From: Nanobdellota archaeon | GTDB lineage: Archaea > Nanobdellota > Nanobdellia > Pacearchaeales > GW2011-AR1 | Direction of reading: 5' to 3' | Assembly (NCBI GenBank): GCA_018816335.1 | Contig: JAHIVP010000033.1 | Coordinates: 1 to 37,155 of the forward strand | Length of the DNA stretch: 37,155 nt | Shown here: in pieces, positions 531-34,828 of the stretch | How positions within the stretch are numbered: position 1 is the stretch's first letter | Layout: every line of letters starts with the position of its first letter | The notes under the pieces: model-generated | The model's database searches: none | The model's input: the letters and a program-made list of their open reading frames with translations, nothing else | What the model was told of the DNA's origin: nothing | Translations under genes and position numbers: made by a program

Positions 531-602
531 CTTTTTGGGATTATCCCTCCCGACCCACCCTAAAACTCCTTCGGAATTTGTTATATTGTGAATCCCAAAA
601 AG
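531..602. repeat. C-loop stem-loop element 1 (G4-type hairpin)
   Basis: A perfect 12-bp inverted repeat, CTTTTTGGGATT at 531-542 and AATCCCAAAAAG at 591-602, encloses 48 nt. The loop begins with four C-tracts (545-560: CCC T CCC GA CCC A CCC), so the - strand has a canonical G-quadruplex motif. It sits just upstream of taw3, with its right arm ending 12 nt before the chosen ATG. Confidence 0.8.
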
Positions 603-614
603 TTTAATATAAAA

Positions 615-1325
615 ATGAACTTTCAAAACGAAAAAAAGCAAACATTAGAAAAGAAAGATAAATCAACTATTGGAGAGATTGATAAGAAAATTGTTGGATT
701 ATGTGATAAGATTAATTCTTTAGATGATTATTATACAACTTCGAGTTGTGCTGGAAGGGTTAAGTTGGTTAGGGAGACTGGAAAGAAAGAACCTGATTTG
801 TTTGTTTGGGTTAGTCATGAGGTGATTAGTTTTGATGAGTTGAAGGGGGAGTTGGATAGAATTTTGAATGAACAATCTCCTTCTGAAAATTTGGTTCAAT
901 ATGATAATTCCCTTTCACAAAAACAATCTCCTACAATAAACCCGCCCTCCCACCCTTTATTAGGAGATTGTTATTCCTCCACCAAATTAATAAATAAATC
1001 TTCTGTTAATTCCAATAAGAAAATTTATTTCAAACAAGAACCATGTATACTTCATGTTGCTTGTAAGAATTTTGATTCAGCAATGGATTTGTTGAAGAAG
1101 GCTCAGTTATCTGGTTGGAAAAGAAGTGGTTTGATAGACAATGGGAAGTTTGTTTTAGAGCTTTTGTCTACGGAAAAAATGGAATTGCCAATTATAAAAG
1201 ATGGAAAGATTTTAGTTGATGATGATTATTTGAAGTTGATTGTTGATGAGGCTAATGATAGGGTGGGGAGGGTGTGGGGGAAGATTCAGAGGTTGGAAAC
1301 ATTAATAAGTAGGATTTCTAGTTAA
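615..1325 (+). CDS. taw3: tRNA wybutosine-synthesis methyltransferase Taw3/TYW3, with in-frame hairpin insertion
   Basis: Taw3/TYW3 makes an N4-methylation step in wyosine-derivative synthesis at G37 of tRNA-Phe. Family signatures are visible: INSLDDYYTTSSCAGR near the N-terminus, FVWVSHE, then FKQEPCILHVACK, GWKRSGLI, and a TEKMELPI...ILVDDDYL segment followed by a C-terminal helix. ATG 615 is preferred over the in-frame GTG at 588 because the latter lies inside hairpin element 1. Between DRILNE and IYFKQEP there are about 45 residues not expected in the family, rich in S/N/P/Q, encoded by hairpin element 2. The 3' end is very G-rich (1261-1280). The next gene starts 4 nt downstream, suggesting co-transcription. 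Confidence 0.88.
   Translation: MNFQNEKKQTLEKKDKSTIGEIDKKIVGLCDKINSLDDYYTTSSCAGRVKLVRETGKKEPDLFVWVSHEVISFDELKGELDRILNEQSPSENLVQYDNSLSQKQSPTINPPSHPLLGDCYSSTKLINKSSVNSNKKIYFKQEPCILHVACKNFDSAMDLLKKAQLSGWKRSGLIDNGKFVLELLSTEKMELPIIKDGKILVDDDYLKLIVDEANDRVGRVWGKIQRLETLISRISS
922..972. repeat. C-loop stem-loop element 2, inside taw3 coding sequence
   Basis: Arms 922-933 (AACAATCTCCTA) and 961-972 (TAGGAGATTGTT) are perfectly complementary. They are followed inward by a CA bulge (934-935), ATAAA/TTTAT (936-940 with 956-960), and a 15-nt loop CCCGCCCTCCCACCC (941-955). This is the full family architecture, read in frame as part of Taw3. Flanking AAATTTGGT (about 905-914) and ACCAAATTA (about 980-989) add an outer inverted repeat. 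Confidence 0.9.
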
Positions 1326-5143: not shown

Positions 5144-5210
5144 GTTAGAATTAGGATATTTGTATATAAAAATGTTTTTGAAGTTGGAATTATCTACTTG
5201 TTTTCTCTAA

Positions 5211-5263
5211 ATTTTACTTCATATAATAAACCCTCCCACCCACCCTTTATTATGAAGTAAAAT
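5211..5263. repeat. C-loop stem-loop element 5, archetype
   Basis: The cleanest copy. Outer arms 5211-5222 (ATTTTACTTCAT) and 5252-5263 (ATGAAGTAAAAT) pair over 12 bp; AT bulge at 5223-5224; AATAAA (5225-5230) pairs with TTTATT (5246-5251); loop CCCTCCCACCCACCC at 5231-5245. It lies between divergent transcription units (nitroreductase and tRNA-Asn), so it cannot be a terminator for either. Confidence 0.95.
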
Positions 5264-5308
5264 TATGAATGATAACTTTTAAAAAGCATTTGAATTTAAT
5301 GTATTCAT

Positions 5309-5936: not shown

Positions 5937-5944
5937 TTTAATTT

Positions 5945-6010
5945 TAATTTTAATACCTTATATCCAACCCAAAACCCTCCCACCCTTGAAAAATTAAGGT
6001 ATTAAAATTA
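5945..6010. repeat. C-loop stem-loop element 6
   Basis: Perfect 16-bp arms TAATTTTAATACCTTA (5945-5960) and its complement (5995-6010) enclose 34 nt with CCC AAAA CCC T CCC A CCC. It separates aIF1A from the KH gene on the - strand. The stem shares its TAATTTTAATACCT arm with element 15. Confidence 0.9.
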
Positions 6011-7261: not shown

Positions 7262-7290
7262 TTTGATTATTTTGTACCATTTATAAGTAA

Positions 7291-7342
7291 AAATTTTTCC
7301 CCACACAATAAACCCTCCCACCCTTTATTCTGAGAAAAAATT
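7291..7342. repeat. C-loop stem-loop element 7 (imperfect)
   Basis: AATAAA (7307-7312) and TTTATT (7324-7329) flank an 11-nt loop CCCTCCCACCC. The outer arms pair only through AATTTTT and AAAAAATT, with an unpaired CCCCACAC block on the left. With the extra CCCC at 7299-7302 a long-loop G-quadruplex remains possible on the - strand. It lies upstream of the DUF424 gene. Confidence 0.75.
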
Positions 7343-7485
7343 AATTCCAACATAATTTATAGGTATTAGTGTGAGAGGTTATTTATATTTTAGGGTTATT
7401 TTTCATTTATTGATCTTTAATTAATAATTGTGGTTAGTTTAAATAGATTTTCAATTAAGTAAACTCGAGTTTTTTAGAAGTTTTT

Positions 7486-8391: not shown

Positions 8392-8450
8392 TTTTTTAAT
8401 AATCCTAGGTAATACCCACCCCCCACCCTATTAATAGGATTATTAAAAAA
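8392..8450. repeat. C-loop stem-loop element 8
   Basis: Perfect 16-bp arms TTTTTTAATAATCCTA (8392-8407) and its complement (8435-8450), inner TAATA/TATTA, and loop CCCACCCCCCACCC (8415-8428). The middle run of six C leaves only a marginal G-quadruplex. It lies in the divergent aIF2-beta/HAD promoter region. Confidence 0.88.
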
Positions 8451-11938: not shown

Positions 11939-11952
11939 TTTTATTTTGATAG

Positions 11953-12007
11953 TATTTTACTTCACACAATAAACCCTCCCTCCCACCCTTTATTGTGAAG
12001 TAAAATA
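11953..12007. repeat. C-loop stem-loop element 11, archetype
   Basis: Outer arms TATTTTACTTCAC (11953-11965) and GTGAAGTAAAATA (11995-12007), 13 bp; AC bulge; AATAAA/TTTATT; loop CCCTCCCTCCCACCC (11974-11988). It lies 30 nt beyond the MCM stop and upstream of the next - strand gene. Very like element 16, including part of the flank, and differing from element 5 by a compensatory T-A to C-G change in the stem. Confidence 0.95.
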
Positions 12008-12037
12008 ATTCTATTCTTATTTATAATGTAAAACATT

Positions 12038-15945: not shown

Positions 15946-16497
15946 TTATTTTTTTATTCTTTTAATAGCTTCTTTAACATTTTTCTGAAGTTGTTTCATT
16001 GATTCTTCAAGTTGTGCTTTGTTTTTTGTTCCTGTGCAAACAAGTTTTCCATTTGAGAAAAGTAAGAATGTTGCTGTTGGGTCTATAAGTTTGTAAACTA
16101 AACCTGGAAATTGTTCTGGTTCATATTCTGTGTTTTCAAGTTCTAGAGCTAGCAAGTTTAAGTTTAGCATTAAGTCGATTGAACCTGAAGCAACAATATT
16201 TTGAACTGTTATTTTTGGTTTGTCTGTGATTCTAACATTGATTCTTCTTAGTTGTTTTATTACTGTATCTATTACTTCTTTTACTTGAGCTACTGATTTT
16301 GTTCCTGTGCAAACTAAGTTTCCTGATGAGAAAACTAGAACTGCTGATTTTGGTTTTTTTACTCTTAAGACTAAACCTGGAAATTGTTCTGGATTATATT
16401 CTGTATTAGATTGAGTTCTTGCAAGTTTTGTTAGTGAAACTGGTTTTCCTAGAGAAGTTGTTGCAACGATATTTTGTACTCTTAAGCCTGTAGCCAT
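15946..16497 (-). CDS. tbp: TATA-binding protein (TBP)
   Basis: A 183-residue saddle-shaped general transcription factor made of two direct repeats. Repeat one runs RVQNIVATTSLGKPVSLTKL..NTEYNPEQFPGLVLRVKKPKSAVLVFSSGNLVCTGTKS; repeat two VQNIVASGSIDLMLNL..NTEYEPEQFPGLVYKLIDPTATFLLFSNGKLVCTGTK. All DNA-contact phenylalanine and valine positions look intact. The basic C-terminal tail ERIKK-like (EAIKRIKK) replaces the acidic tail of some archaea. A TATA-like CTTTATACTAAC lies about 20 nt before the ATG, implying a leaderless transcript. Confidence 0.97.
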   Translation of the reverse strand: MATGLRVQNIVATTSLGKPVSLTKLARTQSNTEYNPEQFPGLVLRVKKPKSAVLVFSSGNLVCTGTKSVAQVKEVIDTVIKQLRRINVRITDKPKITVQNIVASGSIDLMLNLNLLALELENTEYEPEQFPGLVYKLIDPTATFLLFSNGKLVCTGTKNKAQLEESMKQLQKNVKEAIKRIKK

Positions 16498-18580: not shown

Positions 18581-20332
18581 TTAATTGTTAGCTCTTTGGT
18601 ATTCTTTTTCAATTTCTGCAAGAGTAGTTATATCTTCTGTGTTTCTGTCTAAACGTAGACGAGTGAATCTTGGGAATCTTAAAGCAAAACCTGATTTGTA
18701 AGTTGGAGATTTTTGAATGTTTTGATATGTGACAGTTATGACAATTTTTGGTTTGACTTCAACTTCTCTGCCGTTTTCCTTTGTTATTAAAGGTTTTAGT
18801 TTTTTTGTAACTTCTTCAAATGATAATCCTTCTTCTGGTTTTTCTTTTAATCCTGTTGATACTTTTCCTATTTCTAAAAATTGGTCTTGTTGGAGGCAGG
18901 CAACTGTGTAAGATGTTAACCATCCTGCTCTTTTTCCTGTTCCATATTCTGCTTTTACAATTACTAAATCAAAATCTTGATCTTGAGGTTTTATTTTTAA
19001 TCCATAACCAATACGAGAACCTGGTTTGTAAGGTGCGTCTATTGATTTTGCCATAACTCCTTCATGTCCTTCTTCTAGAGCTTTGTTGTAGAATTCTTCT
19101 GCTTCTTTTTCACTTGATGTTTTTATTTGTTCTGCTAATTTTAAATGGTATTTGTCATTTTTAATTATTTTTTTAAGAATCTCGTGTCTTTTTTCAAAAG
19201 GTTTTTTAATTAAATTTTCTCCATTGTAGTATAAAATATCAAATACATTTATTTCAATTGGAAGTTTTTTTACTAATTTTTCTATGTCATATTTTCTTTT
19301 TATTCTTTGAGATATTGTTTGGAAAGGTAGGAATTTTTTTGTTTTTGGATCATAGCCTATTGCTTCTGAATCAATTATGAAAGATTCTGCTTTTATATTT
19401 TCTTTTACATATTTTACTACATCTGGAAATTGTTTTGCTACATTGTCTAGTCTTCGAGTAAATAATTTTATTCCGTTGTTGTTTTTGTGAATTAACATTC
19501 TGAATCCATCGTATTTGTATTCAAATATACAAGGTTTTCCTAATCTATCAAATGCATCTTGGAAATCATCTGCTTTTGGGTAGAGCATTACTTTTAGTGG
19601 TTTTTCTGTGTCAATTACAATTTCTTTTAGTTTTCCTTGGCATGCTTTTTCAAAAACTAGAGCAAAGTCGTTTGATGTGTTGTAAGCTTCTTGAACTTGT
19701 TCTTTTAATTGTTTTACTTTTTCCTCATCGCAACCCCATGAAAACCCAGAACCCTCCCTCCCTTTTGATGGGATTGCTTTATTATCTTTTGGACAACAAG
19801 CTACTACAATTGCATCTCTTAAAACTCCTTCTCCAATTCCAATTCTTAGATTTCCTAAAAGTGTTCTTGCTAAATATTTTGCTTCTGTTGGTGATGCAGA
19901 AGTCAGGAGTTCTGCTATTAGAGAAATCTTTTTTTCAACTGTTCCTTTTCCTTCAAATTCTACTAATTTTCTTAAATTTATTAAAACTTTTTCTGCTGTT
20001 AATTTTGTTGAGGAAAGTGTTGATTGTTCTTTTGAAGAAGTTAATAATTCTGCTACTTTTCCTAAATCTCCTAATAATTTGAATTCTTCAACTATTTTTG
20101 TTTCTTGATAACCTGTTGCTTTGCTTAGGGCTTTGATTGTAAGTTGTAATGAGATTCCTATTTCACTTTCATCATAGTCAGGGAAGATTTTTCCTTTAAG
20201 TAAGTAGATGATAGATTTGTCTTGTTCTTTTTTTAATTTATTTAGAAATTTTGCTAAGATATCTGTTTTTTCTAGACTTTTTGTTGTTGAGCTTAGTTTT
20301 TCATATAGTTCTGCTAGTTGAGAGTATTTCAT
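18581..20332 (-). CDS. lig: ATP-dependent DNA ligase with in-frame hairpin insertion
   Basis: 583 residues. An N-terminal DNA-binding domain (about 1-225) is followed by the nucleotidyltransferase core: motif I EYKYDGFR with the adenylated Lys273, FTRRLDNVAKQFPD, IIDSEAIGYD, FDILYYNGEN, EGVMAKS, and YGLKIKP. The OB domain closes with FPRFTRLRLDR. It seals nicks during replication and repair. An unusual segment at about residues 180-205 (KAIPSKGREGSGFSWGCDEE) is encoded by a G-quadruplex hairpin element (19730-19777). It falls in a loop of the DNA-binding domain, so activity is probably kept. Confidence 0.95.
   Translation of the reverse strand: MKYSQLAELYEKLSSTTKSLEKTDILAKFLNKLKKEQDKSIIYLLKGKIFPDYDESEIGISLQLTIKALSKATGYQETKIVEEFKLLGDLGKVAELLTSSKEQSTLSSTKLTAEKVLINLRKLVEFEGKGTVEKKISLIAELLTSASPTEAKYLARTLLGNLRIGIGEGVLRDAIVVACCPKDNKAIPSKGREGSGFSWGCDEEKVKQLKEQVQEAYNTSNDFALVFEKACQGKLKEIVIDTEKPLKVMLYPKADDFQDAFDRLGKPCIFEYKYDGFRMLIHKNNNGIKLFTRRLDNVAKQFPDVVKYVKENIKAESFIIDSEAIGYDPKTKKFLPFQTISQRIKRKYDIEKLVKKLPIEINVFDILYYNGENLIKKPFEKRHEILKKIIKNDKYHLKLAEQIKTSSEKEAEEFYNKALEEGHEGVMAKSIDAPYKPGSRIGYGLKIKPQDQDFDLVIVKAEYGTGKRAGWLTSYTVACLQQDQFLEIGKVSTGLKEKPEEGLSFEEVTKKLKPLITKENGREVEVKPKIVITVTYQNIQKSPTYKSGFALRFPRFTRLRLDRNTEDITTLAEIEKEYQRANN
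19730..19777. repeat. G4-type stem-loop element 12 inside the ligase gene
   Basis: GCAACCCCAT (19730-19739) and ATGGGATTGC (19768-19777) pair at 9 of 10 positions. The 28-nt loop carries CCC AGAA CCC T CCC T CCC on the + strand. On the ligase mRNA this reads GGGAGGGAGGGTTCTGGG, a canonical intramolecular RNA G-quadruplex motif encoding GREGSG. Confidence 0.85.
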
Positions 20333-23908: not shown

Positions 23909-23945
23909 ATTTGTTTAATTTCTGAGAATGTAATGTTCCTGAATT

Positions 23946-24056
23946 TTAATTCCATATAATAACCCTTCCAACTCGCGTCCACAGTTTGTCAAGCATATTA
24001 TCTAGATACATAAAACTGTAAACTCTCGCCCACCCTTTATTGTGAATAAAAATTAA
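23946..24056. repeat. Expanded stem-loop element 13 with nested palindrome
   Basis: A family-like left arm (TTAATTCCAT, AT, AATAACCC) at 23946-23965 and right arm (GCCCACCCTTTATTGTGAATAA) at about 24028-24050 are separated by about 65 nt. The insert itself holds an inverted repeat ACAGTTT (23981-23987) / AAACTGT (24013-24019). It looks like a C-loop element split by insertion of a second hairpin. Confidence 0.65.
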
Positions 24057-28171: not shown

Positions 28172-28182
28172 GATGTTTTCCT

Positions 28183-28241
28183 TTAATTCTATTCCATATA
28201 ATAAACCCTCCCACCCACCCTTTATTATGGAATAGAATTAA
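28183..28241. repeat. C-loop stem-loop element 14, archetype
   Basis: Arms of 15 bp (28183-28197, TTAATTCTATTCCAT, with 28227-28241), AT bulge (28198-28199), AATAAA/TTTATT, and loop CCCTCCCACCCACCC (28206-28220), the same loop as element 5. It lies between the divergent MFS gene and a + strand gene. Confidence 0.95.
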
Positions 28242-34003: not shown

Positions 34004-34042
34004 GATTTATTAAGGAGAGAGAAGTATAATTAGTTTATGTTG

Positions 34043-34099
34043 TAATTTTAATACCTAACAATAACCCTCCCCCCCACCCTTATTAAGATATTAAAATTA
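34043..34099. repeat. C-loop stem-loop element 15
   Basis: Outer arms TAATTTTAATA (34043-34053) and TATTAAAATTA (34089-34099), 11 bp; inner AATAA/TTATT; loop CCCTCCCCCCCACCC (34065-34079). The stem is shared with element 6. It lies between NAC and paralogue B on the - strand. Confidence 0.9.
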
Positions 34100-34628: not shown

Positions 34629-34736
34629 GTTTCTATTGATTTATTATAGTATTTAAGGTTTTTGTAGAAAGATTTTAAAGGTTGGAAATTATCTTGATTT
34701 ATGGATAATTTTTATATCATGTAAATATACTAAAAA

Positions 34737-34790
34737 ATTTTACTCTACACAATAAACCCTCCCTCCCACCCTTTATTGTGAAGTAAAATA
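34737..34790. repeat. C-loop stem-loop element 16, archetype
   Basis: Loop CCCTCCCTCCCACCC (34757-34771), AATAAA/TTTATT inner stem, AC bulge, outer arms ATTTTACT..AC and GTGAAGTAAAAT with two mismatches. It is the closest sister of element 11; similarity continues into the right flank for about 25 nt. It lies between divergent Sec61-beta and valS. Confidence 0.92.
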
Positions 34791-34828
34791 ATCTCTACTC
34801 ATATCTATGATGTAAAAATTAAAAGTTT

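Follow-up and report, generated by a model that had tools for sequence, protein, structure and literature searches.

A C-loop hairpin family with a replication-fixed orientation in a Nanobdellota archaeon and its probable in-frame insertion into taw3

The window analysed here, i.e. the 37,155-nt stretch of contig JAHIVP010000033.1 of a Nanobdellota archaeon (GenBank assembly GCA_018816335.1), contains near its beginning an open reading frame (588-1325, + strand) that was identified as Taw3/TYW3 (Pfam PF02676, E 8.7e-41), and alignment to relatives points to ATG 618 as its likely start. The NCBIfam Taw3 models and PDB entries 2qg3 and 2drv match the protein in two blocks, with an insert between them (cf. 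Table 1). Within the insert lies a hairpin, composed of the arms AACAATCTCCTACAATAAA and TTTATTAGGAGATTGTT and the intervening loop CCCGCCCTCCCACCC; its stem comprises 17 bp with a 2-nt bulge in the 5' arm, and the complementary strand reads as a (G3N1)3G3 quadruplex motif. Folded as single-stranded DNA, the hairpin core gave -10.8 kcal/mol against a mean of -1.3 for shuffled sequences, and none of 1000 dinucleotide shuffles was as good. The complete, well-paired copy that a preliminary description of this DNA had placed at 922-972 in the Taw3 coding sequence was therefore recovered at the same coordinates, and both the open frame across it and the intact conserved blocks on either side (TTSSCAGR and IYFKQEPCILHVAC) were found as described. 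The flanking inverted repeats reported alongside did not hold up, as they paired no better than shuffled flanks (150/300), that is, at chance level, and a target-site duplication, which had also been suggested as something to look for, was not found at the taw3 copy. A direct repeat of 11 nt, AACAATCTCCT, which matches the 5' arm, is present beside the taw3 copy only, arm repeats having been looked for near other members of the family and none found there. The type B element just upstream of the gene consists of an outer stem and C-runs, with a CTTCGG hairpin within the loop.

The Taw3 protein was then aligned with the products of 36 loci of related genomes (33 distinct sequences), the nearest named relatives, with an identity of about 41%, being those of a Candidatus Pacearchaeota and of a Nanoarchaeota MAG. 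A segment of about 46-48 residues, including a stretch around SPTINPPSHPLLGDCYSSTK, is absent from all 33 distinct sequences; its span as tabulated is the union of two estimates, with edges uncertain by about 5 codons. This agrees with the previously proposed gain of about 45 residues, and the result that had been named as pointing to an ordinary protein loop, namely the same residues in all relatives, was not observed. Since the insert is missing in the related proteins, it appears to be a lineage-specific insertion, and we regard it as very likely that the taw3 feature arose by insertion. The notion of a datable mobility event stands only in part, at the protein level, at which empty sites were found in other genera. 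Of the ~140 nt gained, the element proper (about 51-55 nt) accounts for no more than roughly a third. Unrelated insertions, two of them C-rich, occur at this loop of Taw3 in three other genera, which indicates that the loop tolerates insertion. In an AlphaFold model, built on a shallow alignment of three sequences, pLDDT stayed under 50 in residues 87-131 (nt 876-1010; protein starting at 618) and was mostly 70-90 elsewhere, so that the insert is predicted to be disordered and the remaining fold intact. We infer that the insert is probably translated as a disordered loop of about 46-48 residues.

Table 1. Features of the window and the evidence for each
Feature	Position	Strand	Evidence
Related element, type B, just upstream of taw3	531..602	+	fold z -2.1; similar sequences elsewhere
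taw3, tRNA wybutosine-synthesis methyltransferase, TYW3 family, with insertion	618..1325	+	Pfam TYW3, NCBIfam, PDB
Additional coding DNA compared with all other Taw3 proteins (46-48 residues)	855..1010	+	alignments to relatives
11-nt direct repeat of 5' arm, AACAATCTCCT	871..881	+	51 nt upstream of taw3 hairpin
C-loop hairpin element in taw3	922..972	+	fold, covariance model, blastn
Intergenic copy	5206..5266	+	covariance model E 1.2e-15
Intergenic copy	5943..6010	+	covariance model E 5.6e-4
Intergenic copy, three C-runs	7288..7344	+	covariance model E 5.4e-9
Intergenic copy	8392..8448	+	covariance model E 6.5e-4
Intergenic copy	11949..12009	+	covariance model E 4.3e-16
DNA ligase copy, in frame; gene on - strand, 18581-20332	19723..19782	+	model E 0.135, weak; stem, loop and insertion size fit
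Longer relative, ~60 nt more in loop, same kind of stem and C-runs	23942..24055	+	sequence read; repeats D2/D15
Intergenic copy	28181..28241	+	covariance model E 1.0e-15
Intergenic copy	34041..34099	+	covariance model E 4.7e-9
Intergenic copy	34732..34792	+	covariance model E 1.8e-14

The taw3 hairpin belongs to a family dispersed over the genome. A blastn comparison of the taw3 stretch with the rest of the genome, which is independent of any model, revealed 13 other places, the best long match (C44:1794) being 93% identical over 55 nt, while a simple motif with four runs of C3, likewise used without a model, occurs 36 times in the genome. A covariance model was based on 14 geometrically uniform copies (alignment A4), including the taw3 copy, the match of which (916-976, E 1.8e-13) is therefore not an independent score. 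With this model, 51-55 copies were found, i.e. 51 at E<=0.002 and four weaker ones that complete the list of 55; matches on the opposite strand at six loci represent the same palindromes read backwards, all of them weaker, and were not counted. Because 15 of the 19 base pairs in A4 show a change on both sides, and 46 compensatory cells were observed versus 13 in shuffles, the structure has been kept while the sequence of the arms has changed; in slid controls, pairing dropped to 42-52%. The 2-nt bulge is kept in 14 of 14 aligned copies and, together with the covariation, argues for recognition by structure. In A4, the rows of which were chosen for uniform loop geometry, the loop is 15 nt long and formed by a run of four C3 tracts, with the C-runs invariant and the three single-nucleotide spacers variable. 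Longer relatives have stems and C-runs in common with these copies and a loop that is 50-90 nt longer, and others contain a CTTCGG hairpin; no autonomous parent copy was found in this genome. The element is best read as a small palindromic DNA repeat of about 51-61 nt that is interspersed and non-autonomous.

Several further repeats were noted during this analysis. Composite elements of greater length, with additional CTCG..GCTCGCC segments, are present at C7:1992-2110, C36:1755-1880, and C29:1160-1290 as well as at 23942-24055 of the window, and one element is possibly nested in another in the dus gene. The copy at 34732-34792 has a 5' arm like that of its sibling C44:3160 and a 3' arm like that of C2:11949, with mismatches as a result, and might be a hybrid or an intermediate. 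An amidase-like gene (gatA?, identified by eye only) contains a different C-rich insertion with a TTCGCTTACGCGAA hairpin (C31:3690-3810), and two 137-nt direct repeats, 74% identical and starting 273 nt apart, are located at 15998-16134 and 16271-16407 of the window.

Eight in-frame copies were found in seven genes, i.e. taw3, DNA ligase, polB, bud32 (two copies), xpf/hef-like, pheT, and dus, which bears out the earlier proposal that the family can enter coding DNA; the search for these copies required an open frame and would have passed over broken genes. As they lie in either orientation and use several frames, no particular peptide is being kept. The clearest case in size is DNA ligase, where comparison with a 64%-identical ligase delimits an insertion of 18 residues, i.e. 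54 nt or one element, with an imperfect GATAA/GATGA as the sole duplication-like feature seen there. The first insertion in Bud32 (28 residues) was found in none of the 18 other genera in the alignment, while at the second Bud32 site four of these 18 have unrelated insertions. By alignment to solved structures, the copies in the ligase, the family B polymerase, XPF, and Bud32 fall within loops or linkers. PheT and Dus were named from family models only, and the absence of the insertion from orthologues covers Taw3, the ligase, and the first Bud32 site. The open frames in all eight copies favour translation over removal, an open frame being also the search criterion. At a DNA ligase locus of another genome (L248, G019), a 949-codon frame includes an intein-like sequence that ends in GIVHNC just before the nucleotidyltransferase motif.

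The orientation of the family follows a single rule. In 55 of 55 copies, on all 15 contigs that carry them, the C-rich strand lies on the strand with G>C skew, with no exceptions, the long forms that were found included. Genes of either direction show the shift in skew (e.g. in C2, +0.45 in + genes and +0.06 in - genes), which is thus a mark of replication and not just of gene direction. A role as RNA or terminator was ruled out, since orientation is unrelated to that of the neighbouring genes, 51 of which run in the same direction as the element and 54 in the opposite one. The G-rich strand is usually the leading strand; if this applies here, the C-loop strand, as a parental strand, would be the lagging-strand template. 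Selection against a G-rich strand in the lagging template could, however, give the same polarity without any single-strand mechanism. The copies occupy 15 of the 45 contigs, and those free of copies total 458 kb, about half of the assembly, including the long contigs C5, C15, C27, C28, C34, C40, and C45; the uneven spread may reflect a chromosomal domain or a mixed bin. Composition is similar throughout the assembly.

Outside this genome, the family was searched for at several levels. The covariance model found no member in 91 related genomes of the same class, and exact loop patterns gave none in GTDB genomes and viral contigs. A blastn search of phages and plasmids revealed no relative, one hit to a Vibrio phage (20 nt, E 0.4) being put down to chance, and an Rfam search of the window returned two tRNAs only. 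In the open-licence literature searched, there was no description of such elements for DPANN archaea. Hairpins with C-rich loops of different sequence were seen at three loci in other genera (L122, L128, and L131; G030 and G024), and these, together with the unrelated insertions at the Taw3 loop, suggest that other genera of the taxonomic family may carry analogous C-rich element families unrelated in sequence.

These findings led us to favour, as a reasonably probable explanation, a composite one in which a palindromic element was inserted into taw3 and the family spread through single-stranded DNA; the single-strand mechanism of spread, taken by itself, is quite possible, though short of probable. 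According to this proposal, the element would have entered a surface loop of Taw3 after the genus had split from its sequenced relatives. Its copies would move through single-stranded DNA: the C-loop hairpin would fold on the lagging-strand template, a trans-acting enzyme, either of the HUH/Y1 type or another single-strand recombinase, would recognise its structure, and it would be inserted into the lagging-strand template at replication forks, and the surviving insertions would be those that kept an open frame in tolerant loops. An enzyme of this kind, recognising structure in a single strand, would account for covariation with a kept bulge. IS200/IS605 elements owe an orientation set by replication to their use of the lagging-strand template (PMC5371812; PMC6006769). 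In the genome studied here, which is 82% complete, neither a Y1 transposase nor TnpB was found, and there was no PF01797 match that would indicate RAYT/TnpA_REP; among the 56 genomes of its taxonomic family, 23 have a Y1 transposase.

Other origins can be considered for the same data. The hairpins might be a polar chromosomal signal that the cell keeps for action at the fork, such as lagging-strand priming or pausing, or as segregation marks, with the copies in genes being tolerated functional sites. The complete agreement with the replication strand, the strong structural covariation, and the conserved C-runs with variable single-nucleotide spacers, as would be expected if i-motif or quadruplex potential were important (in aligned copies chosen for a uniform loop), are all in keeping with such a role. 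Nevertheless, we consider it unlikely, as about half of the assembly (458 kb) is free of copies, none of the 91 related genomes has a member, and placement in coding loops is hard to explain by selection. Alternatively, the G-rich strand could stall forks, and template switching there would let quasi-palindromes grow and become perfect; similar stems would then arise from local sequence and by gene conversion, with no transposition. Such errors would fit the compensatory arms, the G-quadruplex motif of the complementary strand, the repeat of 11 nt of the arm next to the taw3 copy, and the presence in other genera of C-rich but unrelated insertions at this Taw3 loop, whereas template switching is expected to erase the conserved 2-nt bulge, the relatedness of distant copies in arms and inner stem (93% over 55 nt) requires dispersal, and the ligase has gained a segment of the size of one element; replication error thus seems decidedly improbable as the source of the family.

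Two readings concern the coding copies in particular. That the extra DNA in taw3 is an intervening sequence, taken out of the transcript or the protein, would suit its site between conserved blocks, but the fold has no obvious bulge-helix-bulge shape and all eight in-gene frames are open (which the search also demanded), a property that splicing would make unnecessary, so that we give this idea very little weight. Even less credible to us is an ordinary, fast-evolving protein loop, encoded by low-complexity sequence that is palindromic by chance: although the Taw3 loop and the second Bud32 loop hold unrelated insertions in other genera and two thirds of the taw3 insert is non-element, the DNA matches dispersed intergenic copies in both sequence and structure, which in itself contradicts this reading, and the in-gene copies differ in frame and strand. 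A broader hypothesis, which we regard as rather doubtful, is that hairpins with i-motif/G-quadruplex loops, confined to one replication strand of a DPANN archaeon and present genome-wide, spread by a single-strand mechanism or act at the fork, and that in either case they remodel housekeeping proteins by insertion in frame. The replication-strand orientation of all copies is new here, and the family can serve to mark the direction of replication in draft genomes of the genus. Two questions thereby become open to testing, namely by what means short hairpin repeats move when no transposase is visible and to what extent such insertions shape proteins in the small genomes of probable symbionts.

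To our knowledge, palindromes located in frame within coding sequences are known chiefly from Rickettsia. The Rickettsia palindromic elements (RPE; Ogata et al. 2000, 2002, reviewed in PMC10969869) are about 150 bp long, encode a conserved peptide, and are found in frame in unrelated genes, the proteins of which are predicted to accommodate them. The present elements resemble RPE as small palindromes with many copies per genome and in-frame insertion in unrelated genes, and differ from them in being about 55 nt long (about 17-20 codons), in using several frames and both gene orientations in place of a conserved peptide, and in their loop of four C3 tracts, replication-fixed orientation, and archaeal host; the likeness is one of effect. 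REP/REPIN sequences are dispersed, short, imperfect hairpins, some of them bulged, that are non-autonomous, recognised as single strands, and mobilised by TnpA_REP (RAYT) (PMC6006769). The present family shares with them the dispersed, short, imperfect and bulged hairpins, the lack of autonomy, and possibly the single-strand recognition; unlike REPs, which are mainly extragenic, it has no GT[AG]G foot (A4), its C-rich loop has 15 nt instead of 2-5 nt, and no RAYT was found in its own 82%-complete genome. With IS200/IS605 it has hairpins and an orientation following replication in common, use of the lagging-strand template being our inference; it differs in consisting of a single short hairpin, in which no pair of left and right ends was recognised, and in that no transposase or TnpB was found in the 82%-complete genome. 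Like a classical MITE, it has inverted arms, but no duplication was seen at taw3 and only the imperfect GATAA/GATGA at the ligase. Integron attC sites, too, are hairpins that keep their structure while their sequence varies, have extrahelical bases, and recombine as single strands; no cassette array was seen here. Since the defining features of each of these systems are not all borne out here, the element was assigned to none of them. By this comparison, its closest counterpart in effect would be RPE, and in likely mechanism REP/RAYT together with IS200/IS605; if this is true, the family would represent an archaeal counterpart of the Rickettsia coding palindromes, set apart by another loop architecture and by a replication-strand rule without exception.
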